Below are positions 7,369 through 38,934 of a stretch of DNA of 38,934 bases, piece by piece; within the stretch, counting starts at the first letter, position 1; each line of letters opens with the position of its first letter. Source of the DNA: Bacillota bacterium (GTDB lineage: Bacteria; Bacillota; Dethiobacteria; Dethiobacterales; Dethiobacteraceae); the NCBI GenBank assembly GCA_012523945.1, contig JAAYSO010000052.1, positions 1-38,934 of the forward strand, read 5' to 3'. The position numbers and the translations under genes were made by a program. The notes below the pieces were generated by a model. It was not told the DNA's origin, ran no database searches, and worked only from the letters and a program-made list of their open reading frames with translations.

Positions 7369-8625
7369 TTGAAGAAATTGTCCATTTTTCTTTTTTGTCT
7401 CATACTTATCGGCTCAGGTGTTTATTTTGCCGTACAACGGCAGGATCGTGCTCCCAATGGTGACATGTTGCCACCGCCTGCCGGCGATCAAAATGACAAA
7501 GGACAACCGCCCATACCCCGTGATCCCTTAAAAGAACAGCTTAACAAGATGACCCTGGAAGAAAAAGTGGGACAACTCGTGATCGTAGGAATGGACGGTA
7601 CTGAACTCACTGAAAATATTACCAATTTAATTCAGAACTATCATGCCGGCGGTGTCATTCTCTATCAGAAAAATATTACCAATAGTATGCAGCTTTTACA
7701 GTTATTAAATCAGCTCAAAAGCAGCAATAACAGTAAAATACCTTTATTTCTCTCCCTGGATGAAGAAGGCGGAGCCGTAAGCCGCTTGCCTGATGAAGTG
7801 ACAAAGCTTCCCTCCAATAAAATTATTGGTGAAATTGATAATGAAAAGCTTTCTTACAATATCGGCCTGGCCCTGGCACTGCAACTGCAAGCCTATGGCT
7901 TTAACCTTAATTTCGCGCCTGTTGTAGATATTAACAGCAACCCGCAAAATCCGGTTATTGGAGATCGCTCTTTTGGTGCTGAGGCAGATTTGGTCAGCAG
8001 GTTAGGCGTGGCCACCATCAAAGGTTTGCAAAACGGCGGCATTATCCCCGTGGCTAAACATTTTCCCGGACACGGCGACACATCCGTTGATTCCCATGTG
8101 GGTTTGCCCATCGTTAACCATGACTTGGACAGATTAAAAAGTTTTGAATTGCGGCCTTTTCAGGCAGCCATAAACACCGGGGTTGACGCTGTGATGGTGG
8201 CGCATATTCTACTGCCCAAACTGGATGACGAGTACCCCGCTTCCCTGTCTCACACCATTATTACCGGACTATTAAAGGAAGAGTTGCAATTTCAGGGGCT
8301 GGTAGTCACGGACGATCTGACCATGGGGGCCATTGTCAAGCATTATTCCCTTGAGCAAGCCGCTGTCCAGGCAGTTAAAGCCGGTAGCGACCTCCTCCTG
8401 GTGTGCCATGATTATGAAAGCCAAGTGGCTGTTTTAAAAGCTTTACATTACGCCATGGCACAGGGAGAAATTCCGGAAGCACAAATCAACAACAGCGTTT
8501 ATAAAATCTTACAGCTGAAACAGAAATACAATTTAAACAACCAAACCATTGCAAATATTAATGTGACGTCTGTAAATGCCGAAGTGAAAAATCTTCTGGC
8601 TCCTTTTCTGACGCCGGACAATTAA
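7369..8625 (+). CDS. Beta-N-acetylhexosaminidase, GH3 (NagZ-like), exported
   Basis: A 418-residue glycoside hydrolase family 3 enzyme, expected to release N-acetylglucosamine from muropeptide or cell-wall fragments. The N-terminus has a hydrophobic segment at 3-21, so it is secreted or membrane-anchored, followed by a Pro-rich linker. Motifs: D-E-E-G-G-A-V-S-R-L; K230-H-F-P-G-H-G-D-T-S-V-D241-S-H243, where Asp-His is the acid/base dyad typical of NagZ-type GH3; and V-V-T-D315-D-L-T-M-G, holding the nucleophile Asp. The start chosen is TTG 7369 with GGAGG eight bases upstream. The frame is open back to 7240, but that extension has no export-like sequence and would hide the signal. Convergent with the 612-residue gene. 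Confidence 0.88.
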   Translation: MKKLSIFLFCLILIGSGVYFAVQRQDRAPNGDMLPPPAGDQNDKGQPPIPRDPLKEQLNKMTLEEKVGQLVIVGMDGTELTENITNLIQNYHAGGVILYQKNITNSMQLLQLLNQLKSSNNSKIPLFLSLDEEGGAVSRLPDEVTKLPSNKIIGEIDNEKLSYNIGLALALQLQAYGFNLNFAPVVDINSNPQNPVIGDRSFGAEADLVSRLGVATIKGLQNGGIIPVAKHFPGHGDTSVDSHVGLPIVNHDLDRLKSFELRPFQAAINTGVDAVMVAHILLPKLDDEYPASLSHTIITGLLKEELQFQGLVVTDDLTMGAIVKHYSLEQAAVQAVKAGSDLLLVCHDYESQVAVLKALHYAMAQGEIPEAQINNSVYKILQLKQKYNLNNQTIANINVTSVNAEVKNLLAPFLTPDN

Positions 8626-26972: not shown

Positions 26973-29567
26973 ATGGATATAAACAAATTTACGGAAAAAG
27001 CCGCACTGGCTTTACATACGGCACAAAATGCGGCAGCCCGCAGGAAACATCAAGCCATTGACTGTGAACACCTGCTGCTGGCTTTGTTGGCGCAGGAAGA
27101 CGGCTTAATCCCCCGACTTTTCACCAGAGCAGGCGTATCTTTACAAAGGGCTAAAAGTGAATTAGAAAAAAACCTGCTAAAAAGGCCTGCCGTTTCCGGT
27201 TCCGTCTCCCCCTACATTACACAGCGGCTAAATCAGTTAATAATCCAGGCTGAAGAAGAGGCCCAATTTTTAAAAGATGAATACATCAGTGTCGAACATT
27301 TCCTGCTGGCTATGTTTCATGACCAGGAAATGCGAAACTTTCTTTCCGCTTTAGGGCTGGAACGCCACTCCTTCATGCAGGCCATGATGGATGTGCGGGG
27401 AAACCAGCGCGTCACCGGCCCCAACCCAGAGGAAACATATGAAGCTTTAGAAAAATACGGGCGTGATTTAACCGCCATGGCCGAGCAAAATAAATTGGAC
27501 CCCGTGATCGGCCGTGATGCGGAAATCCGGCGCGTTATTCAAGTATTATCGCGCCGCACAAAAAATAATCCTGTGCTTATCGGCGAGCCAGGCGTAGGGA
27601 AAACCGCTATAGCCGAAGGGTTGGCACGGCGGATTGTGGCCCAGGATGTACCGGAAAGCCTGAAAGACAGGCGGATAGTAGCCCTGGATATGGGCTCACT
27701 TCTGGCCGGGGCTAAATTCCGGGGTGAATTTGAGGAACGCCTGAAAGCAGTTTTACAGGAAGTAACCCAGGCAAAAGGTCGCATCATTCTTTTTATTGAC
27801 GAGCTGCACACAGTTGTGGGCGCCGGTAAAGCTGAAGGCGCCCTGGATGCCGGTAATATGTTAAAACCAATGCTGGCACGGGGGGAACTGCACTGCATTG
27901 GCGCCACCACACTTGATGAGTACCGCTGGTACATTGAAAAGGATGCCGCCCTGGAAAGACGTTTTCAGCCCATCCTGGTGGAAGAGCCTTCTGTGGAAAG
28001 TACTATTTCCATTTTACGCGGCCTGCGTGAACGCTATGAGCTGCATCACGGTGTCCGCATTCAGGACGCCGCCCTGGTTGCCGCCGCCGTCTTAAGCCAG
28101 CGCTATATTTCAGATCGCTTCCTGCCTGATAAGGCTATTGATCTTATTGATGAAGCGGCCGCCAAACTACGCACGGAAATGGAAAGTATGCCGGAAGAAC
28201 TGGAAATACTGGAACGCCGCCTACTGCAGCTGGAAATAGAACGTGAAGCGCTGCGCCAGGAAAAAGATGAAGCTTCGAAAAAGAGGTTAAAAGCTCTGGA
28301 AAAAGAATTGGCAGAAATTAAAGCTGACCGTGATGCTCTCCGTGCCAAATGGGATGAAGAAAAAAGTGTGATCGGCAGTTTAAGTAAACTGCGTGCAGAA
28401 CTGGAACAGGCACGAACTGAAATGGAGCAGGCTCAACGCGAATATGATTTAAATAAAGTAGCTGAATACCAGTACGGCAAAATTCCGGCTTTAGAACAAC
28501 AGCTAAAGGAAGCTGAAGCTAAACTGGGGGCAGATCAAACCAAACTGTTAAAAGAAGAAGTTACGGCAGAGGAAGTGGCGGAAGTTGTCTCCCGCTGGAC
28601 AGGAATTCCCTTAAGCCGCCTCTTGGAAGGCGAAAAAGAAAAACTGCTACGTTTAGATGAACTTCTCCACAAACGGGTCATCGGCCAGCATGAGGCGGTA
28701 CAGGCAGTCAGTGATGCCGTCATTCGTGCCCGCTCCGGCCTGAAAGACCCTAATCGCCCCATTGGTTCTTTTATCTTTTTAGGTCCCACAGGCGTGGGAA
28801 AAACGGAATTGGCAAAAGCTTTGGCGGAAGCTCTTTTTGATACGGAGGAAAATATGATCCGGATCGATATGAGCGAATACATGGAAAAGCATGCCGTTGC
28901 CCGCTTAATCGGCGCCCCTCCCGGTTATGTTGGCTATGATGAAGGCGGCCAGCTAACGGAAGCCGTCCGCCGTAAACCCTACAGTGTGCTGCTTTTTGAT
29001 GAGATCGAAAAAGCACACCAGGACGTTTTTAATCTATTGCTGCAGCTTCTTGATGACGGCCGCCTGACAGACAGTCAGGGGCGCACGGTAGATTTTAAAA
29101 ACACCATTGTGATTATGACTTCCAATCTTGGCAGCACATATCTTTTGGAAAATATTTCTACCGACGGCACCATTGCCCCGCAGGCAGAGGACAGGGTTTT
29201 AGCTGAATTACGCACCCATTTTCGGCCGGAGTTTTTAAACCGGATAGATGAAATTGTCCTCTTTTCACCACTGACAAAGGCACAGCTAAAGCAAATAGTT
29301 GATTTACAAATCCAGCAACTACAGGTACGGCTGTCAGAGCGCCACATTACCCTTGCCTTAAGTGAGGCGGCAAAAGATTTAATTGTGGAAGCAGGATATG
29401 ATCCGGTTTTTGGGGCACGCCCCCTGAAACGTTACCTGCAGCGCACACTGGAAACAACACTTGCCCGCAAACTAATTGCCGGGGAAATAACTGATCACAA
29501 CAGTATTCTTGTAGACGTAGAAAATAAAAAACTTGTTTTTCGAGCCAATAACCCTGCAGCAAAATAA
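26973..29567 (+). CDS. clpB: Chaperone ClpB (disaggregase)
   Basis: An 864-residue AAA+ unfoldase that rescues aggregated proteins with the DnaK system. It has an N-terminal double Clp repeat (1-145), first AAA module with Walker A G-E-P-G-V-G-K-T near 208, and a long coiled-coil middle domain (about 405-525) with the heptad pattern typical of ClpB. The middle domain separates ClpB from ClpA. The second AAA module has G-P-T-G-V-G-K-T near 605. The IGL-type ClpP-binding loop is not seen. Start ATG 26973 has GGGAGGG upstream; the frame stays open to 26826 but runs back through the terminator and overlaps the kinase gene. Confidence 0.95.
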
Positions 29568-29600
29568 AATAACCCTGTCCGCCACGGGCAGGGTTATTTA
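29567..29600. terminator. Shared bidirectional terminator between clpB and the Hsp20 gene
   Basis: AAATAACCCTGTCC pairs with GGGCAGGGTTATTT around a short loop. It lies exactly between the convergent stop codons of clpB and the small heat-shock gene. Confidence 0.88.
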
Positions 29601-29610
29601 AGTTTAGTCC

Positions 29611-30045
29611 TTAATTAATATCTATTTTTTTACCTTTGGGGCCGGGTTCGGCTTTAGGCAAGGTTACTGTGAGTACGCCATGCTCATATTTAGCACTGAT
29701 TTTATCTGCATCAACATTGTTAACATAGAAGCAGCGTTGGAACTTCCCGTATCTTCTTTCTTTTCTGATGTAGTTTGCATTTTTGTTTTCATAAATTTCT
29801 TTGTTTTCTGCCTTGATGGTTAAATAATTGTCCCTATATTCCACATTGATTTTGTCTTTATCCAGTCCGGGCAATTCTGCTTCCACAAGATAGGCAGCTT
29901 CCGTTTCTCTGATATCAGCCTTAAACCCGGGCAAATGATTTACCCCATAAAAACCTGTCAGGAAATTATTGAAAAAGTTATCGAAAGCATGGTCCATACC
30001 CATCAGATGTCTCCCTCTCCTACGAAAAGGAACCAGATCAAACAT
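29611..30045 (-). CDS. Small heat-shock protein (Hsp20 / alpha-crystallin)
   Basis: A 144-residue ATP-independent holdase. The alpha-crystallin domain covers about 38-130: V-E-A-E-L-P-G-L-D-K-D-K-I-N-V, then N-Y-L-T-I-K-A-E, and Y-E-H-G-V-L-T-V-T-L-P-K, the classic A-x-x-x-n-G-v-L motif variant. The tail ends K-K-I-D-I-N, with an I-x-I motif for oligomer docking. ATG 30045 is preceded by GGAGGT seven bases away; an ATG six codons earlier covers that site and is rejected. Convergent with clpB. Its promoter carries a CtsR-like operator. Confidence 0.93.
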   Translation of the reverse strand: MFDLVPFRRRGRHLMGMDHAFDNFFNNFLTGFYGVNHLPGFKADIRETEAAYLVEAELPGLDKDKINVEYRDNYLTIKAENKEIYENKNANYIRKERRYGKFQRCFYVNNVDADKISAKYEHGVLTVTLPKAEPGPKGKKIDIN

Positions 30046-30090
30046 GCACAGCACCTCCTGCAAGTTATTAATTAGTAAATTTTCACTTTC

Positions 30091-30119
30091 ATTATAAGCT
30101 AATGGTCAAATTAGGTCAA
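30091..30119 (-). promoter_or_regulatory. Sigma-A promoter of the Hsp20 gene
   Basis: Minus strand TTGACC, exactly 17 bp, TATAAT (perfect -10). The -35 hexamer is part of the CtsR-like repeat at 30104-30120. Confidence 0.7.
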
Positions 30120-30120
30120 A
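30104..30120 (+). promoter_or_regulatory. CtsR-like operator 1 (overlaps the Hsp20 promoter)
   Basis: GGTCAAA-TTA-GGTCAAA, a tandem heptamer with 3-nt spacing that matches the established CtsR operator (A/G)GTCAAA-NAN-(A/G)GTCAAA at all 14 heptamer positions; the spacer is TTA rather than NAN. It covers the -35 box, where bound CtsR would block RNA polymerase. Confidence 0.8.
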
Positions 30121-30202
30121 CTCAACAAGCAGCAAACAACAGATTTTAACAGACGAATACGCCTGTGCAGGTAAAATAGCTCACTTTTTCAACAAAAATC
30201 AA

Positions 30203-30219
30203 GGTCAATAATGGTCAGA
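30203..30219 (+). promoter_or_regulatory. CtsR-like operator 2 (upstream, degenerate)
   Basis: GGTCAAT-AAT-GGTCAGA has the same orientation and 3-nt spacing as site 1, with two changes in the heptamers (the final T, and the G for A in the second). It is 99 bp from site 1, about 120 bp from the Hsp20 -10 box. It may be a second site or relic. Confidence 0.5.
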
Positions 30220-30255
30220 TTGTTGCCTGTAACCTATCCCTGGTTGATTCCATAT

Positions 30256-30281
30256 AAAAAACGGGCTGCTCTTTTGCAGCC
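30256..30281 (-). terminator. Intrinsic terminator after the HD protein gene
   Basis: Minus strand GGCTGC, 6-nt loop, GCAGCC, then CGTTTTTT, starting right after the stop codon. Confidence 0.8.
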
Positions 30282-31484
30282 TCAATCTAATTTAAAATAA
30301 ACAAACCAACGTGAGAAATCGTAATCTGCCACAATTTTTTCCTGATATTGCGTGGCCAGTGCCTGATAGCCTTCCAGTAAAGCTTGAGTCCGGACCCCAT
30401 GGATCAGGGAAAGATATGCTTCCATAAAAGCGGCAAAATGGTCACAAACACGGATTAACTCCCCGTCTAAAGGCCAAAACTCATCTTTATTGTAAAGAGC
30501 ATCGATGGCACCTGCCGGTACAATTTTTACTTTACCGTCTAAGATTATTTTGTTGGCAAACTCATCTTCAGTATAATAGCGTATCTGCTCGTGCCAGGCA
30601 TCCGGGAGTAATGGCAATAACTTATCCTGCACCTGAAGCATTTCAATTTCTTTAATCACTTCATCCAGTCCGGCCACAGCCCGTTTAACAGGTGAGACTA
30701 TGTCGCGCGTTAATACTTCAGGCAAATCATGAAAGAGACCGGCCAGGCAATTATTGACTAGGCGCTGCGTGCAGGGCTCAATTTCACTGGTGGCAAAATA
30801 GGTCAGCAAAAATACGATCAGCATATGGCCCAGAACGGAAGTCTCTGGCAGGCGTGGTGTTTGCGCCCAGCGCTGCTGGAAGCGCAGCTGCCCCACCAAA
30901 TCCATAAAGTGGCTGGTTTTTTTGCCCAAAAGCAGTTTTTGTACTCCCGCCAAATGATAATGATCCTCTATTTCGTCTTCTATTTTATTTTTTGTTTCCT
31001 CCAAGCCATACAAACCGGCATTAAGATGATACACCAGCTTAAACTCCCAGTTTGTGGCCAGGTAATGAGATGCTTTTAAAATATCTTTTTCTAAAGCACT
31101 GTATTCCGGTTGAAACAAATACGCCGCAAATTTTTCGTAAAAATTATCTTTAACTTCTTTAAGGTGATTTTCCAGTTCTGTTAAAACCCATTGGTTCAGC
31201 AGTTCGCCTTTTTCCGCCATTAACCGGTGAAAAATGGGCGGTTTGATATCTGTCAGTACAATCCGGTGTAAAAACTCAAAAATACCGCCTTCAAGCAGCT
31301 TCCGCCAGTCAATGGTGATGCCCCGATCGGTTTCTTCAAACTTTGCCAAAAGAAAAGCATAGATCATTTTATGGGCCTGTTTATCCAATTCAGTAAAACC
31401 TTTATGCGGTCTATTGTGGTCATTCCAGCGCTGTATACTGGCCGCCTCAAACAAGAGCAGCAGCAGTTCCTTAGTAATCATCAT
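30282..31484 (-). CDS. HD-domain phosphohydrolase
   Basis: A 400-residue cytoplasmic protein with HD-type features in both halves. The first (1-50) has Q-R-W-N-D and E-L-D-K-Q-A-H-K-M. The second has His220 in L-G-H-M, then F-H-D-L-P-E at 251-256 and T-R-D-I at 259-262, which give a metal-binding set. It resembles the nucleotidase YfbR group (COG1896-like), in which the enzyme removes phosphate from deoxynucleoside monophosphates, but the activity here is inferred. ATG 31484 follows GGGGAGAAA; the next ATG is one codon later. Likely in operon with rmuC, 22 bp upstream on the minus strand. Confidence 0.8.
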   Translation of the reverse strand: MMITKELLLLLFEAASIQRWNDHNRPHKGFTELDKQAHKMIYAFLLAKFEETDRGITIDWRKLLEGGIFEFLHRIVLTDIKPPIFHRLMAEKGELLNQWVLTELENHLKEVKDNFYEKFAAYLFQPEYSALEKDILKASHYLATNWEFKLVYHLNAGLYGLEETKNKIEDEIEDHYHLAGVQKLLLGKKTSHFMDLVGQLRFQQRWAQTPRLPETSVLGHMLIVFLLTYFATSEIEPCTQRLVNNCLAGLFHDLPEVLTRDIVSPVKRAVAGLDEVIKEIEMLQVQDKLLPLLPDAWHEQIRYYTEDEFANKIILDGKVKIVPAGAIDALYNKDEFWPLDGELIRVCDHFAAFMEAYLSLIHGVRTQALLEGYQALATQYQEKIVADYDFSRWFVYFKLD

Positions 31485-31506
31485 TTTCTCCCCTTGTTTT
31501 CTTTAC

Positions 31507-33018
31507 CTAAAAATCGTCATCACCTGCGGGCAAATCCAGCTTAATACTTTGCGACGCAGCCACAGGTAGCTCCTGCACTTTTTTTAGCTTCCGTTCAATG
31601 GTACGGCTTTTGCGGGAGGCGCCGTCAATAGTATTGCTGGCTTCTTGCAGTTTCTGTTTTGTTTTTTCAAGCAGCGAGCCAAAATAACCAAATTCCCTCT
31701 TCACAGCCCCTAACAACTCCCACACTTCACTGGATCGTTTCTCAATGGTGAGCGTTTTAAATCCCATTTGCAGGCTGTTTAAAAAGGCGGCCAGTGTGGT
31801 GGGACCTGTTACCGCCACTTTATAATCACGCATTAATGTTTCAAACAAGCCGCTACGCCTTAAAACTTCGGCGTACAAACCTTCAAAGGCTAAAAACATA
31901 ATGGCAAAATCAGTGGTATGGGGCGGGCGAATATACTTATCCTTAATGTCTTTGGCACATCTTTTAATACTGGCCTCCAGCTTCCGGGCACAAGCTTCAA
32001 CTTGGTCCACAGCGGCATTTTCGTAAGCATCCAGTAAGCGGTGATAATCTTCTAAAGGGAACTTGGAATCAATGGGCAACAAAACCGGGTGGTCATCATC
32101 TTTGCCCGGCAATTTTAAAGCAAATTCCACTCGCTCCCGGGCATGAGGTGCTACCGCCACATTCTTCTCATATTGAGAGGGAGCAAAAATCTGTTCCAAA
32201 ATATTTTCCAGCTGTATTTCCCCTAATGTGCCGCGCACTTTCACATTGACTAAAGCTTTTTTCAAATCACCGACACCGCTGGCCAGGGCCTGCATTTCTC
32301 CCAAACCCTGGTGCACCTGCTCCAGCCGCCGGCTTACCTGATGAAAAGATTCTCCCAGTCTTTTTTCCAATGTACTTTGCAGCTTTTCATCCACTGTGAT
32401 ACGGATTTTTTCTAATTTATCGGCATTGTCCTGCTGCAGACTTGCCAATTTTGCCTCTAAAGTATCCCGCATTTTCCCCAGTTTATCGTCACTGGAAGTA
32501 ATCAGTTTTTCCAACTGTTCTGACAAAACAGCAAATTTTTGCTGCTGGTGTTCATTAAATTCACCAACACTGAGGCGAAAGCTTTCTTCAAAGGATTTTA
32601 AAGCATTCACCAGCTCCGCCCGGTTTTGTCCTGCATCCTGATTTAACTGCTCCTGCAGTTTTACTAATCTTTCTTCCATGACGGCACGTATACTGTCCAG
32701 CCTTTCATTATTGCTACGGGTCAACAAATCCAAATGCGTTTTTAAAAGCATAGCCATTTCCGCCACCTGTTTTGAGAGGGAATCGCTCACACCCTTCAGT
32801 GTTTGGCTTAATTCCAGGCGGTTTTCCCTGGCATTAGAGGCTATTTCTTCACGACAACCGGATAAGCCGTTATTAATCAGCTGCTGGTTACGCTCTGTCA
32901 TTTTTTCCAAGTCCGTTAGCGACTGCTTTAGATTGGAAACGCCTGTACCTTTCACCAGCAAGATAATATTCAGCAGTAACACAAGCAAAATCGCCACAAG
33001 CAAAAAAATATCCGTCAT
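31507..33018 (-). CDS. rmuC: DNA recombination protein RmuC
   Basis: A 503-residue protein with a single N-terminal membrane segment (about 2-22), a long coiled coil (about 28-230), and an RmuC domain (about 245-450) with P-I-D-S-K-F-P-L and a conserved F-L-A-F-E-G-L-Y-A-E-V. RmuC limits inversions at short inverted repeats and is predicted to carry a PD-(D/E)xK nuclease fold; the D-S-K with nearby Glu is consistent. Start ATG 33018 has GGGAGGA upstream. It is followed 22 bp later by the HD phosphohydrolase. Confidence 0.92.
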   Translation of the reverse strand: MTDIFLLVAILLVLLLNIILLVKGTGVSNLKQSLTDLEKMTERNQQLINNGLSGCREEIASNARENRLELSQTLKGVSDSLSKQVAEMAMLLKTHLDLLTRSNNERLDSIRAVMEERLVKLQEQLNQDAGQNRAELVNALKSFEESFRLSVGEFNEHQQQKFAVLSEQLEKLITSSDDKLGKMRDTLEAKLASLQQDNADKLEKIRITVDEKLQSTLEKRLGESFHQVSRRLEQVHQGLGEMQALASGVGDLKKALVNVKVRGTLGEIQLENILEQIFAPSQYEKNVAVAPHARERVEFALKLPGKDDDHPVLLPIDSKFPLEDYHRLLDAYENAAVDQVEACARKLEASIKRCAKDIKDKYIRPPHTTDFAIMFLAFEGLYAEVLRRSGLFETLMRDYKVAVTGPTTLAAFLNSLQMGFKTLTIEKRSSEVWELLGAVKREFGYFGSLLEKTKQKLQEASNTIDGASRKSRTIERKLKKVQELPVAASQSIKLDLPAGDDDF

Positions 33019-33166
33019 AAGGTCCTCCCAGGCAGCATATTCACATCTTTTATAGTACTTCGCTTTATGTCGATTTTTTCCTGCTCACTGCTTTTAAATT
33101 GTCTTTTCCTGTTAGGCAAAAACTGTTGTTTTTTTATAGGATAGCCCGGAACTAAAAGTCAGCAAT

Positions 33167-35779
33167 TTACTTGGCGTGGTAAAATACTCGCTGTAAAGCT
33201 TTGATAATTTCTACAATGGGTGTGATGGCCACAGAGCAAGCAAGGGCATAAAGCCACTGCCGCAGCGAAAGCGGTGTTAGTTTAAACCAGCCGGCAAGGA
33301 CAGGCAGCTGCACAACAGTAACTGTCAGTAAAAAAAGCAAGACATTGCCTACTATAATGACCGGGTTATTAAAAGTGCGCAGAGAAAAAACAGTGTCTTT
33401 GCCCTGCTTAATATTGACTGCATGCACAAATTGCGCAGTTGACAAAGTAATAAAGGCCATGGTGGTACCGATTTGAGGAGCCACCAGGCTCCCCAGGTAA
33501 TAGGAAAGCAGCGTAAAACAAGCAATCAAAAATCCTTGATAAATAATACTGATGCCAAGCCCGCCGGCAAAAAAGCTTTTGCGCGTGTCCCGCGGTGGTT
33601 CCGCCATTAAGTCTGAATGAGCCGGGTCTACACCTAAACCTATGGCCGGGATGCTGTCAGAAACCAAGTTAATCCATAAAATATGAACCGGGCTTAAAAA
33701 ACGGATCCCCGCCGGCAGGAACAGTGTAGCCACAAATAGGGAAAGTACTTCACTCATATTGGTGGAAAGTAAAAACTGGACTGCTTTACGCACATTAAGA
33801 TATATTTTACGTCCTTCTTCCACCGCATTAACTATGGTGGCAAAATTGTCATCTGCCAAAAGCATATCGGCAACATCTTTTGCCACATCTGTTCCGGTTA
33901 TACCCATACTAATACCGATGTCGGCAATTTTTAATGAAGGCGCATCATTGACACCGTCTCCGGTCATGGCCACAACTTTGTGACGGTTTTTCCAGGCTTT
34001 AACTATTCTCACCTTATGTTCCGGACTCACCCGGGCATAAACTTTGTAACGCTCCAGAACAGCGTCAAATTCAGCACCAGATAAGCTGTCAAGTTCATGC
34101 CCGCTTAAAGCTTCCTTTTCTGAAGTAATAATACCTAAATCCTTGGCGATGGCAACGGCAGTATCTTTGTGGTCACCTGTAATCATTACCGGTAAAATCC
34201 CGGCAGCTTGGCATTTTTCAACGGCAGCATAAACTTCAGGGCGGGGCGGATCCATCATCCCCACCAAACCGACAAAAATCAGTTGGGATTCTACTTCCTG
34301 CAACGGATCATAAGTTTTATAAGCTGCGCCGATAACGCGCAGAGCTTGATCCGCCATCTTTTTGTTTGCCTGCAAAACTGCCGAGACATCAGCTTCAGTC
34401 AAGGGACGCACTTTTTCATTTTGGTAGATATAGGCACATTTTTGCAAAAGTTCATCCGGCGCTCCCTTTGTATGCACCAACAGTCCTTCTTTGCTTTCAT
34501 TAACTGTAGACATCATTTTGCGGTCAGAATCAAAGGGAAGTTCATCAACACGCGTGCGCCCCGCAAAAACTTCCGGTGCATACTTACGAAAGACAAAGCG
34601 TTTAAGTGCCGTTTCCGTCGGATCACCCACTTCTTTTTCACCACTGACTTCAGAATCGTTACTCAACATGATGATATCAGTTAATTTTTGCTCATCAATT
34701 TCCTGCAGGTAAGCATCCGCAGTATAAAACTTACCACTATACCAGATTTGCTTCACTTCCATTTTATTTTGTGTCAAAGTTCCGGTTTTGTCTGTACAGA
34801 TGATTTGGGCACATCCCAGTGTCTCCACGGCAGGCAATCTGCGAATTATGGCTTTACGTTTTGCCATTCTTGTTACCCCCAGGGCCATCACCACAGTGAC
34901 CACGGCCGGTAAACCTTCCGGAATAGCGGCAACGGCCAGACTGACGGCTACCAGGAATGATTGCAGTACAGTGTCAAAATTTATTTGCCCGGCCTTAATC
35001 ACGCCGACAAAAAAGATTAAAGTACAAATAGCAAGTACTAAACGGGTTAAGATCACACCGATTTCAGCAAGTTTCCGTTGCAACGGCGTTTTATTTTCCT
35101 CCACGCCACTAATGAGCAGGGCGATCCGGCCCATTTCCGTATCCATACCGGTAGCCGTGACTACACCTCTGCCACGGCCGTAAACTACACTGCTGCCGCT
35201 AAAAGCCATATTCAAACGATCCCCCAGGGGACAGTCTTCCGCACAGATAGATTGAGCATCTTTTTCCGCCGGAACAGATTCCCCTGTGAGGGACGCTTCT
35301 TCAATGCGCAAGGATGAACTCTCAAGCAGTCGCAAATCGGCAGGCACCATGTCCCCGGCATCCAACAACACAATGTCGCCGGGCACAATTAGTTCAGCCG
35401 GAATCAAGCGAGCTTGCCCCTCACGCATGACTTTGGCCTGAGCAGCACTGATTTTCTTTAAAGCTTCTATTGCTTGTTCAGCTTTATTTTCCTGGACAAG
35501 ACCAATGACCGTATTTAAAACAACTACAGCTAAAATGATGACAGTATCGGCAACTTCGCCCAAAAGGCCGGCTACAGCGGCGGCAGCAATGAGGATTAAA
35601 ACCATGGGGTCTTTTATTTGTGCCCAAATTTTCTGTGCCAGTGTTTGCTTTTTCTTTTGCGCCAAAACATTTTTACCGTAACGTTCTAAACGGAGATTGG
35701 CTTCCTTTTCTGCCAATCCGGTTTCCACTGTACCCAGTTCTTTTAGCACATCTACTGCGTTTTTTGCATATGGTTTCAT
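33167..35779 (-). CDS. Calcium-type P-type ATPase (P2A)
   Basis: An 870-residue membrane pump with the full P2 layout. The N-terminal cation ATPase domain is followed by T-G-E-S at 165-168. The membrane segment 4 motif A-A-I-P-E-G-L-P is at about 284-291, and phosphorylated Asp330 is in C-T-D-K-T-G-T-L-T. T-G-D-G-V-N-D-A-P is in the P domain, and N-L-V-S-D-S-I-P-A sits in segment 6. The P-E-G-L-P motif and the N/D residues in segment 6 are characteristic of Ca2+ or Mn2+ transporting SERCA/PMR1-like pumps. There is no C-terminal calmodulin-binding tail. ATG 35779 follows AAAGAGGTAGA. Monocistronic. Confidence 0.9.
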   Translation of the reverse strand: MKPYAKNAVDVLKELGTVETGLAEKEANLRLERYGKNVLAQKKKQTLAQKIWAQIKDPMVLILIAAAAVAGLLGEVADTVIILAVVVLNTVIGLVQENKAEQAIEALKKISAAQAKVMREGQARLIPAELIVPGDIVLLDAGDMVPADLRLLESSSLRIEEASLTGESVPAEKDAQSICAEDCPLGDRLNMAFSGSSVVYGRGRGVVTATGMDTEMGRIALLISGVEENKTPLQRKLAEIGVILTRLVLAICTLIFFVGVIKAGQINFDTVLQSFLVAVSLAVAAIPEGLPAVVTVVMALGVTRMAKRKAIIRRLPAVETLGCAQIICTDKTGTLTQNKMEVKQIWYSGKFYTADAYLQEIDEQKLTDIIMLSNDSEVSGEKEVGDPTETALKRFVFRKYAPEVFAGRTRVDELPFDSDRKMMSTVNESKEGLLVHTKGAPDELLQKCAYIYQNEKVRPLTEADVSAVLQANKKMADQALRVIGAAYKTYDPLQEVESQLIFVGLVGMMDPPRPEVYAAVEKCQAAGILPVMITGDHKDTAVAIAKDLGIITSEKEALSGHELDSLSGAEFDAVLERYKVYARVSPEHKVRIVKAWKNRHKVVAMTGDGVNDAPSLKIADIGISMGITGTDVAKDVADMLLADDNFATIVNAVEEGRKIYLNVRKAVQFLLSTNMSEVLSLFVATLFLPAGIRFLSPVHILWINLVSDSIPAIGLGVDPAHSDLMAEPPRDTRKSFFAGGLGISIIYQGFLIACFTLLSYYLGSLVAPQIGTTMAFITLSTAQFVHAVNIKQGKDTVFSLRTFNNPVIIVGNVLLFLLTVTVVQLPVLAGWFKLTPLSLRQWLYALACSVAITPIVEIIKALQRVFYHAK

Positions 35780-35855
35780 TACTCTACCTCTTTAACCAAA
35801 TTATTTACGGATAAACTCTTTTATAGCATACCCCGGTAACCTCTTTTATTTTATG

Positions 35856-35881
35856 CAAAAAAAATTGCTTGAAACAAGCAT
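35856..35881 (-). terminator. Intrinsic terminator after the GGDEF/HD-GYP gene
   Basis: Minus strand TGCTTG, 3-nt loop, CAAGCA, then ATTTTTTTT. It starts right at the stop codon. Confidence 0.75.
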
Positions 35882-37428
35882 TAAAACTTAAATTTATTAA
35901 ATTCATTATGGATTTCATCAATAAGTTTACTCTGCTCCAGTGCTTCTTTACTGTTAACACCTTTAGTGGCCGCAATTTCTCTTAATTTTTCCCTCTCTCT
36001 TTCCAACTTTTTATTCAATTCTTCCCGCCGCATCATCTGGCAAAATAAATGTACAATTTCCGGATCAAACTGCTGTCCGGAACACCTTTCCAATTCGTCC
36101 AAAGCCTCCAGCGGCGAAACTTTTTGGCGATAAACTCTATACTGAGTCATGGCATCAAAAGCATCGACCACGGCAAACACTCTGGATAAAAGTGGTATTT
36201 CCTTACCCTTTAAGCCGCGGGGATAACCGAAACCATCCCAACGTTCATGATGGCATAAAACTGCTTCCGCCACAGAAGCCAATTCCGGAACGGTACAGAT
36301 AATGCGCCATCCGCTTTCACAATGTTTTTTGATTTCCTGCCACTCCTGCATTGTCAATATTTTTGATTTTTGCACAACTCCTTTCGGAACTTTGAGAAAA
36401 CCGACATCATGCAGGATGGCCATAATTTTTAAATCTTCTAATTGCTTTGCCGTTAAATCCATCAGTTTGCCTAGCTTGAATAATAATGTCTCTAAACGCC
36501 CCCAGTGCCTGGAGACGCCTTTATGTTCACTTGCCAGCATATTTCGTATTGATTTTAACAAATCAACCCGTATTCGATTTCTGTTAATTTGTTTGTTCTG
36601 TCTCAATTTATACCTGGCAATAGTATAGAGCTCATTTAAGTTGTGCTCGTATGTTTTAGCAAAGGCAGCTTCAATCAACAAGCATGTTTTAAAATAGCCT
36701 TTTGTTCGCTTACAACAATCCTTAAATTTCTGAACAAATTTTTTTACTTCCTCACAAGATGCTGCCGGCAAAATTACTGCCAATTCATCACCAGCCATGC
36801 GCAGTACAATTTCTTTTTTTCCCACTGCAGACAAAAGGAGATCTGCGGCAGATTTTAGATACTTTTCTCCATATTCCTTTCCTAAAAGGTTATGAATAAT
36901 CTCCAGTCCGTTTACAGAGAGCAAAACCAGCCCCAAAGACTGCTTTTGCTTTTCCATAATCTGCGGCAGTATCTCCTGAAAATAACTGTAGTTATATAAA
37001 CCTGTCACTTTGTCACGGTATGAAGGCGATGTTTTCCCCCTACTTTCTTTGACATATAGTTGAGAGGCAGAATTTTTGGCATCTGTGAAAAATCTGGTAA
37101 TGTAAGTTTGCTTATATCTTTTGACGGAAACGTTATATTTTTTCCCTTGCAATTTAACTGCCAATTCCACTTCAGTGCTAAAACTGTTATTGGCAAAAAC
37201 GAGCAAGCTGCGCCAAAAATCTGCATCATAAAGAGGAAACACTTTCGACAAATACCTATTTTGTGCAACCTGCTCACCACCGATTGCATTTAAACACCCG
37301 ATCCAATCAATAAGCTCAAAATCGACAATATGCTGTAAATCGTTATAAACAGGCTGCATTATAATTGCGGTAAACGTCTCCATAGAATAGAACATTCTTT
37401 CCTTTAATTTCGAGATATTTGAACTCAT
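35881..37428 (-). CDS. GGDEF-like plus HD-GYP protein with N-terminal sensor region
   Basis: A 515-residue signalling protein. Residues 1-125 are an N-terminal sensor-like region without membrane segments. Residues 130-275 form a GGDEF-like domain whose signature is A-G-D-E-L (212-216), so cyclase activity is uncertain. Residues 300-470 are an HD-GYP domain with H-D at 340-341 and H-H-E-R-W-D-G-F-G-Y-P-R-G-L at 393-406, intact. HD-GYP enzymes hydrolyse cyclic-di-GMP, so net phosphodiesterase action is likely. The C-terminus is a helical coiled tail. ATG 37428 is preceded by GGAGG. Monocistronic. Confidence 0.88.
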   Translation of the reverse strand: MSSNISKLKERMFYSMETFTAIIMQPVYNDLQHIVDFELIDWIGCLNAIGGEQVAQNRYLSKVFPLYDADFWRSLLVFANNSFSTEVELAVKLQGKKYNVSVKRYKQTYITRFFTDAKNSASQLYVKESRGKTSPSYRDKVTGLYNYSYFQEILPQIMEKQKQSLGLVLLSVNGLEIIHNLLGKEYGEKYLKSAADLLLSAVGKKEIVLRMAGDELAVILPAASCEEVKKFVQKFKDCCKRTKGYFKTCLLIEAAFAKTYEHNLNELYTIARYKLRQNKQINRNRIRVDLLKSIRNMLASEHKGVSRHWGRLETLLFKLGKLMDLTAKQLEDLKIMAILHDVGFLKVPKGVVQKSKILTMQEWQEIKKHCESGWRIICTVPELASVAEAVLCHHERWDGFGYPRGLKGKEIPLLSRVFAVVDAFDAMTQYRVYRQKVSPLEALDELERCSGQQFDPEIVHLFCQMMRREELNKKLEREREKLREIAATKGVNSKEALEQSKLIDEIHNEFNKFKF

Positions 37429-37642
37429 ATGAAGCCTCCTATCTTCAGCAAACTGCCTGCAACCAACAGGCGTTTAAGAGACCCCCAAAAAATCCAAATA
37501 TTTACGACGATTCTTAATTTAATCTACCATAATTGCGCTTTTAAGACAACCATAATTATACATATTTTTACTTTTTTTCTTGTTTATATCGGACTAAATA
37601 AGTTCCACATTCTTAATTCTTTAGACAAGAAACCTTTAATTC

Positions 37643-37672: not shown

Positions 37673-37721
37673 AGATTAAAGTAAATCTTTAGTTCTAAAG
37701 CTAGCAAGGGAGATATAGGAA

Positions 37722-38392
37722 ATGGATAAATTAAAACAAATAGCAAAGGAAATTTTGCAGGCCGGCGGGCAAAGTTAGGTTTTACAATCCATCAGGAAAC
37801 TTTAATGCTGATGGCAAAGCATTTGCTTTTATTAAATACAGTTCCGCAAGAGCGGATTTATAGCGAGTTAAAAAAACTGCTGCTGAAAGCTCCAAATCCT
37901 TCTCTGGGACTGCGATACCTGCAGCAGATCGGGGGATTGAAATTATACCCCGAGCTGCAGGCACTGATCAACTGCCCACAACCGCCCAAACACCATCCTG
38001 AAGGCGATGTTTGGGAGCATACGTTGCTGGTTGTAGATGAAGCCGCAAAGCTTCGTCAAAAAGCTAAAAATCCCGAAGGTTTAATGTGGGCGGCTCTTTG
38101 TCATGACCTGGGTAAGCCCCAAACCTTTAAAGAAGATAACGGCAAAATCTCCTTTTACGGACATGATGCTGCCGGCGCCGATGTGGCACGGAAATTTATG
38201 CTGCGGTTTACAGCAGAAAAAAATTTAATCAATTACGTTTCTTCCATGGTAAGGGAGCATATGAAGCTTTATTTTTTATACAGGGACAAAGCTTCCGCTG
38301 CTGCTGTGCGTCGTCTTGCGGCTCGCATTGATCTAGAGGAATTGCTTCTTCTTGCCCGGGCCGATGATGCCGGTCACCCAACCGAAAAATAA
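37722..38392 (+). pseudogene. Internally deleted CCA-adding enzyme / poly(A) polymerase-like gene, HD part remaining
   Basis: An AGGGAG site precedes ATG 37722, which encodes M-D-K-L-K-Q-I-A-K-E-I-L-Q-A-G-G-Q-S before a TAG. That is the typical first segment of a class II tRNA nucleotidyltransferase, where Y-L-V-G-G-x-V-R-D should follow. Instead the sequence goes, in another frame, to L-G-F-T-I-H-Q-E-T-L, which normally follows the catalytic domain, then to an HD domain with H-H-P-E-G-D-V-W-E-H-T-L and L-C-H-D-L-G-K-P. Thus the nucleotidyltransferase domain (about 120-150 codons, from family knowledge) is missing. It ends at about the point where many homologues continue another 60-100 residues. 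A free-standing HD protein starting at ATG 37805 (CAGGAAAC upstream) could still be made. The CCA-adding function cannot come from it. Confidence 0.78.
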
Positions 38393-38418
38393 AAACACCG
38401 CGCTAAAACGCAGTGTTT
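38393..38418 (+). terminator. Weak hairpin after the HD frame
   Basis: AAACACCGCG pairs with CGCAGTGTTT around a 4-6-nt loop with one mismatch. Only TTTAT follows, so termination is uncertain. It also marks the end of rnpB on the other strand. Confidence 0.4.
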
Positions 38419-38428
38419 ATAAGAATTT

Positions 38429-38869
<441 letters not shown>

Positions 38870-38888
38870 TGTATGCTCAAGGAATTTA

Positions 38889-38917
38889 AGTATAGCATAA
38901 AAAAGTACTATAGTCAA
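38889..38917 (-). promoter_or_regulatory. Sigma-A promoter of rnpB
   Basis: Minus strand TTGACT, exactly 17 bp, TATACT; both hexamers match the consensus at 5 of 6 positions. Transcription would begin about 13 nt before the P1 helix. Confidence 0.8.
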
Positions 38918-38934
38918 AGGTAATAAGTGGACTG

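Follow-up and report, generated by a model that had tools for sequence, protein, structure and literature searches.

The segment at positions 37722-38392 of the window (the whole 38,934-nucleotide stretch analysed, which is the entire contig C120 of the draft genome G000: 154 contigs, 2.08 Mb, 96.7% complete) is in all likelihood a recently broken and redundant class II tRNA nucleotidyltransferase gene that persists as a pseudogene or remnant. Relative to the uninterrupted gene of a second genome of the same genus (G001) it is truncated twice and lies at a different genome position, while the source genome carries a second enzyme and has CCA encoded in its tRNA genes. The feature is genuine, but we regard it as a commonplace gene remnant, one for which the underlying redundancy is clear. 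In a deletion of about 400 bp, with short matching sequences at its two ends, the gene would have lost its catalytic head and gone out of frame; a further loss, at the 3' end, would have taken away the C-terminal part, up to the terminator of the RNase P RNA gene. The CCA end would be made or repaired by an 876-aa enzyme of the CBS-DHH type, and it is in any case encoded by the tRNA genes. As the head is gone, the remnant cannot have tRNA-end-building activity, and we infer that it is without function.

The fragment consists of two parts in different reading frames. The first is an 18-codon N-terminal stub, MDKLKQIAKEILQAGGQS, on the forward strand (37722-37778), which runs from the ATG at 37722 to a TAG at 37776-37778. 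The second frame contains no stop between 37730 and the TAA at 38390-38392, and 220 stop-free codons have a chance probability of about 4e-6 at the base composition of this segment. Within this frame, the ATG at 37805 starts an ORF of 195 aa (37805-38392, forward strand) that comprises the RNA-binding (neck) part and the HD domain of a class II tRNA nucleotidyltransferase (Pfam PolyA_pol_RNAbd, E 1.5e-5; Pfam HD, E 2.4e-12, covering profile positions 1-111 of 116). Two Shine-Dalgarno-like motifs were read from the sequence, both on the forward strand: AAGGGAG (37706-37712) upstream of the stub, which would belong to the original gene, and AGGAAA (37794-37799) upstream of the inner ATG, which may be due to chance. 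The PolyA_pol head (PF01743) was found neither in the fragment nor elsewhere in the window by Pfam profile search, and of the motifs of a functional class II enzyme (GGxVRD/DxD, RRD, EDxxR, ERxxxE) only the stretch ERIYSE is left in the alignment, the head being absent. The full-length Cca models of NCBIfam match the fragment far below their cut-offs, as is expected when only part of a protein is present. Its descent is apparent from the homology of neck and HD domain to an uninterrupted member of the class. The first-pass annotation had described an 18-codon stub with its own ribosome binding site, a TAG and an out-of-frame continuation with a retained HD domain, all of which we find.

That uninterrupted member is the Cca protein of G001, which has 446 aa with head, neck and HD domain and is encoded on the public contig JAAYMK010000033.1 (Bacillota bacterium MAG; 100% identical over 446 aa). 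Alignment with an intact homologue from a related genome, as had been advised at first pass, placed the breakpoints: the G001 protein starts with MTKVKEVAQAIAQAGGQS, which aligns with the stub, and from ARLEFTIHQ onward it aligns with the second frame of the window at 71-72% identity. Between the joins, 397 bases of the G001 gene are missing in the window and the catalytic head lies within the lost stretch; since division of 397 by three leaves a remainder of one, the reading frame is shifted. At the deletion join (37767-37780, forward strand), GGGCAAAGTTA of the 5' part passes into TTAGGTTTTAC of the later part, with an overlap of at least TTA when G001 is made to stand in for both parent sequences. 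The C-terminus is also cut, as 82 further residues follow RADDAG in the G001 protein where the window has HPTEK and a stop (38375-38392, forward strand). The fragment is directly adjoined by a terminator-like hairpin (38393-38418, reverse strand) located 3' of a full-length RNase P RNA gene (RF00010; 38429-38865, reverse strand). The fragment thus carries two lesions that would disable a gene, the frame-shifting loss of 397 bases and the loss of 82 C-terminal residues. The earlier proposal that a cca-like gene had lost its nucleotidyltransferase core by internal deletion is borne out, including the position of the join; what it missed were the 3' truncation, the different genome position, the excess divergence and the CC-adding appearance described below.

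One alternative is that the deletion is an artefact of assembly or binning and that the living strain possesses an uninterrupted gene, an idea to which the fragmented state of the source genome and a contig end only about 540 bp from the fragment lend some weight. However, an overlap of a few bases at the join would be too short for the collapse of a k-mer repeat, and two separate truncations occur within the one gene. We therefore consider an artefact improbable, and the deletion would be present in the organism and not solely in its assembly. Because the genome is a draft of 154 contigs and 96.7% completeness, there is room for an unassembled intact copy or for an assembly error, the latter being the main uncertainty.

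The absence of decay in the remaining frame speaks against its being a remnant. There is no stop in 195 codons and pN/pS relative to G001 is 0.18. Relaxed constraint, the other mark of a pseudogene, was not seen in 119 conserved columns, as deviations confined to G000 (2) are not in excess of those confined to G001 (7). Residues H72, H100, D101 and D187, which we take to be metal ligands, are invariant in a four-row alignment. A structure model of the HD frame by itself, built from an alignment of only four sequences, is confident (pLDDT 86, pTM 0.85) and suggests that the HD part could fold alone. This pattern fits a very recent deletion as well as an HD protein that has been kept, and of these we prefer the recent deletion.

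In the second case, the HD half would survive as a small phosphohydrolase in its own right. Its translation would start at the ATG at 37805, either through reinitiation once the stub has been read or with the help of a weak Shine-Dalgarno sequence of its own (AGGAAA). An open and conserved frame, the invariant residues and the confident model are what such a protein would show, but the conservation may be older than the deletion and the C-terminal region has been lost. Furthermore, a sigma-70-like promoter for the HD frame was not found on the forward strand. HD-only homologues, which the first-pass annotation had named as the observation that would speak against a deletion, did not turn up in the 97 genomes of the class that were searched: the gene is patchy there, with matches to the HD fragment in 17 genomes including the source, and none of the other 16 has an HD-only version, their open frames being 343-519 aa long. 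A limited literature search did not turn up papers in which a tRNA nucleotidyltransferase persists as a stand-alone HD remnant. We thus consider retention of a stand-alone phosphohydrolase unlikely. Slightly less likely still is the more far-reaching version, in which the gene was cut down to neck and HD domain and kept as a new small hydrolase directed at tRNA or nucleotides, the lineage passing from two tRNA-end enzymes to one.

For a broken and redundant gene, as we prefer to read it, the question is what builds the tRNA ends. The sole other PF01743 match in the source genome is a protein of 876 aa (on contig C135) with a DHH domain, two CBS stretches, a PolyA_pol head and an RNA-binding domain. 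In the alignment its head shows all the catalytic motifs (GGFVRD, DLD, RRD, EDPLR and ERLYEE, named partly after PMC7014341) together with a full-length loop. The closest solved relative is 3h37 (E 4.2e-72), an entry titled CCA-adding enzyme. According to PMC3925840, a single enzyme of the CBS-DHH type adds CCA in Thermotoga maritima, though it is homologous to the A-adding enzyme of Aquifex aeolicus. The CBS-DHH enzyme of the source genome would likewise be expected to add all three bases. Among 18 further family members, 10 genomes contain exactly one PF01743 match each, and the open frames are 784-951 aa long. The source genome was also searched for another copy of the broken gene, with the fragment, the PolyA_pol profile and the G001 protein as queries, and none was found; the search for a second cca suggested at first pass has thus yielded a second nucleotidyltransferase but not a second copy of this gene.

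All 40 matches to the tRNA family in the source genome are followed by CCA, counting two that were settled by reading the sequence: a tRNA-Sec match that ends one base off, and a truncated match at a contig end. ARAGORN predicts 36 distinct tRNA sequences, every one with a CCA end. Dependence on enzymatic CCA addition alone is ruled out by the 40 encoded ends. The first-pass annotation had reasoned that the cell needs another CCA-adding enzyme or genomically encoded CCA, and both are present. A tRNA-Sec gene with anticodon tca (C57:1483-1574, L165), predicted by ARAGORN, is an observation in its own right, and the organism may therefore use selenocysteine. Because an intact CBS-DHH enzyme is at hand, these 10 family genomes have a single PF01743 match and CCA is encoded, loss of the gene looks tolerable for the cell.

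The surroundings of the fragment differ from those of the G001 gene. Window positions 29208-37577 and 38391-38931 are collinear with contig C163 of G001, so that the fragment lies in the gap between them, and collinearity restarts at 38391. In the matching interval of G001, between rnpB and a GGDEF-HD gene, there is no cca and about 260 bp of other sequence. The cca of G001 is flanked by kamA on one side and dedA on the other, while in the source genome kamA and dedA are adjacent, about 200 bp apart, with no cca between them. Synteny thus contradicts a positional orthology of the fragment and the G001 gene.

Several other features of this region may be recorded. At the interval of the fragment, G001 has a stop-free stretch (RVFETLSSYQ...LLIY; L094, about 8058-8200) that lacks a start and looks like the end of a gene. 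The window encodes at 35881-37428 (reverse strand) a GGDEF and HD protein with a weak Spo0E-like C-terminal match (PF09388, 20.1 bits, cut-off 23). A P-type ATPase gene at 33167-35779 has an uninterrupted frame of 870 aa in the window, and its homologue in G001 (C163; L094, 10157-11997) has an internal deletion of its own, which spans about 770 bp and shifts the frame; at the join, TATGATCCG is preceded by a short near-repeat, AAAACCT/AAAACTT.

The arrangement could have arisen if the gene changed its place inside the genus: the fragment would derive by transposition or duplication from the gene that stands between kamA and dedA in G001, and the source genome would have lost the original. This is possible but doubtful, and it is compatible with a broken, redundant gene. 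It agrees with the lack of cca both between kamA and dedA in the source genome and between rnpB and the GGDEF-HD gene in G001. However, the kamA orthologues of G002 and G015, from two other genera of the family, also have no cca (nor dedA) beside them in the stretches read. The synonymous differences (pS) between the fragment and the G001 gene amount to 0.80 over 202 codons (95% bootstrap 0.70-0.91), compared to 0.49-0.64 in ten control rows (nine shared genes, the ATPase counted as two parts). The flanking genes diverge less than this, so that simple vertical inheritance combined with relocation inside the genus does not suffice as an explanation; the fragment and the G001 gene would be xenologues or old paralogues, judged from a single gene and with saturation blurring the size of the excess. 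An ancestral cca beside rnpB likewise found no support, as tblastn with the G001 Cca gave no match in the rnpB regions of G003, G004, G005, G007, G008 and G009, i.e. in six of the eight family genomes besides the source that have an rnpB match (the other two being G001 and G010, the latter with a partial match). A move could thus have gone either way. For the broken gene we consider lateral acquisition probable.

Which bases the gene product added can be approached through its G001 homologue. From the third carboxylate (NNID) to the RRD motif, about 13 residues were counted by eye in the alignment of the G001 protein, compared to about 28 in the CBS-DHH protein of the source genome. Among PDB sequences the G001 protein matches 3wfo best, and all 17 fold matches of the HD-frame model at E <= 0.001 are to chains of 3wfo-3wfs, which we take to be the CC-adding enzyme of A. 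aeolicus. A short or missing loop is described as a hallmark of bacterial CC-adding enzymes in PMC3925840 and PMC7014341, the former also stating that loop transplants did not in every case alter activity. The G001 enzyme thus looks CC-adding rather than CCA-adding, and the gene in the window probably encoded a CC-adding enzyme as well, a conclusion from this one homologue because the loop of the window's own gene is gone.

The broken gene would be a further case in which a redundant tRNA-end enzyme is lost from bacteria that encode CCA and keep an enzyme of the CBS-DHH type. If the genus did possess both a CC-adding and a full CCA-adding enzyme, its two species would provide a small natural comparison of one enzyme versus two. 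Among known systems, the fragment is closest to class II tRNA nucleotidyltransferases with an HD domain as represented by the G001 Cca, with which it shares the stub and, at the identity given above, neck and HD domain, but from which it differs in having neither catalytic head nor C-terminal region and in its broken frame; the corresponding models TIGR02692 and PRK10885 match it below cut-off. The 3wfo-3wfs enzyme resembles it in the fold of the HD frame, and resembles the G001 protein in sequence and in the short loop, a comparison made at the level of sequence and fold, whereas in the window the loop falls in the deleted stretch. The CBS-DHH-type CCA-adding enzyme of the Thermotoga maritima type (3h37) has its likeness in the intact copy on C135, a separate gene and not the source of the fragment.
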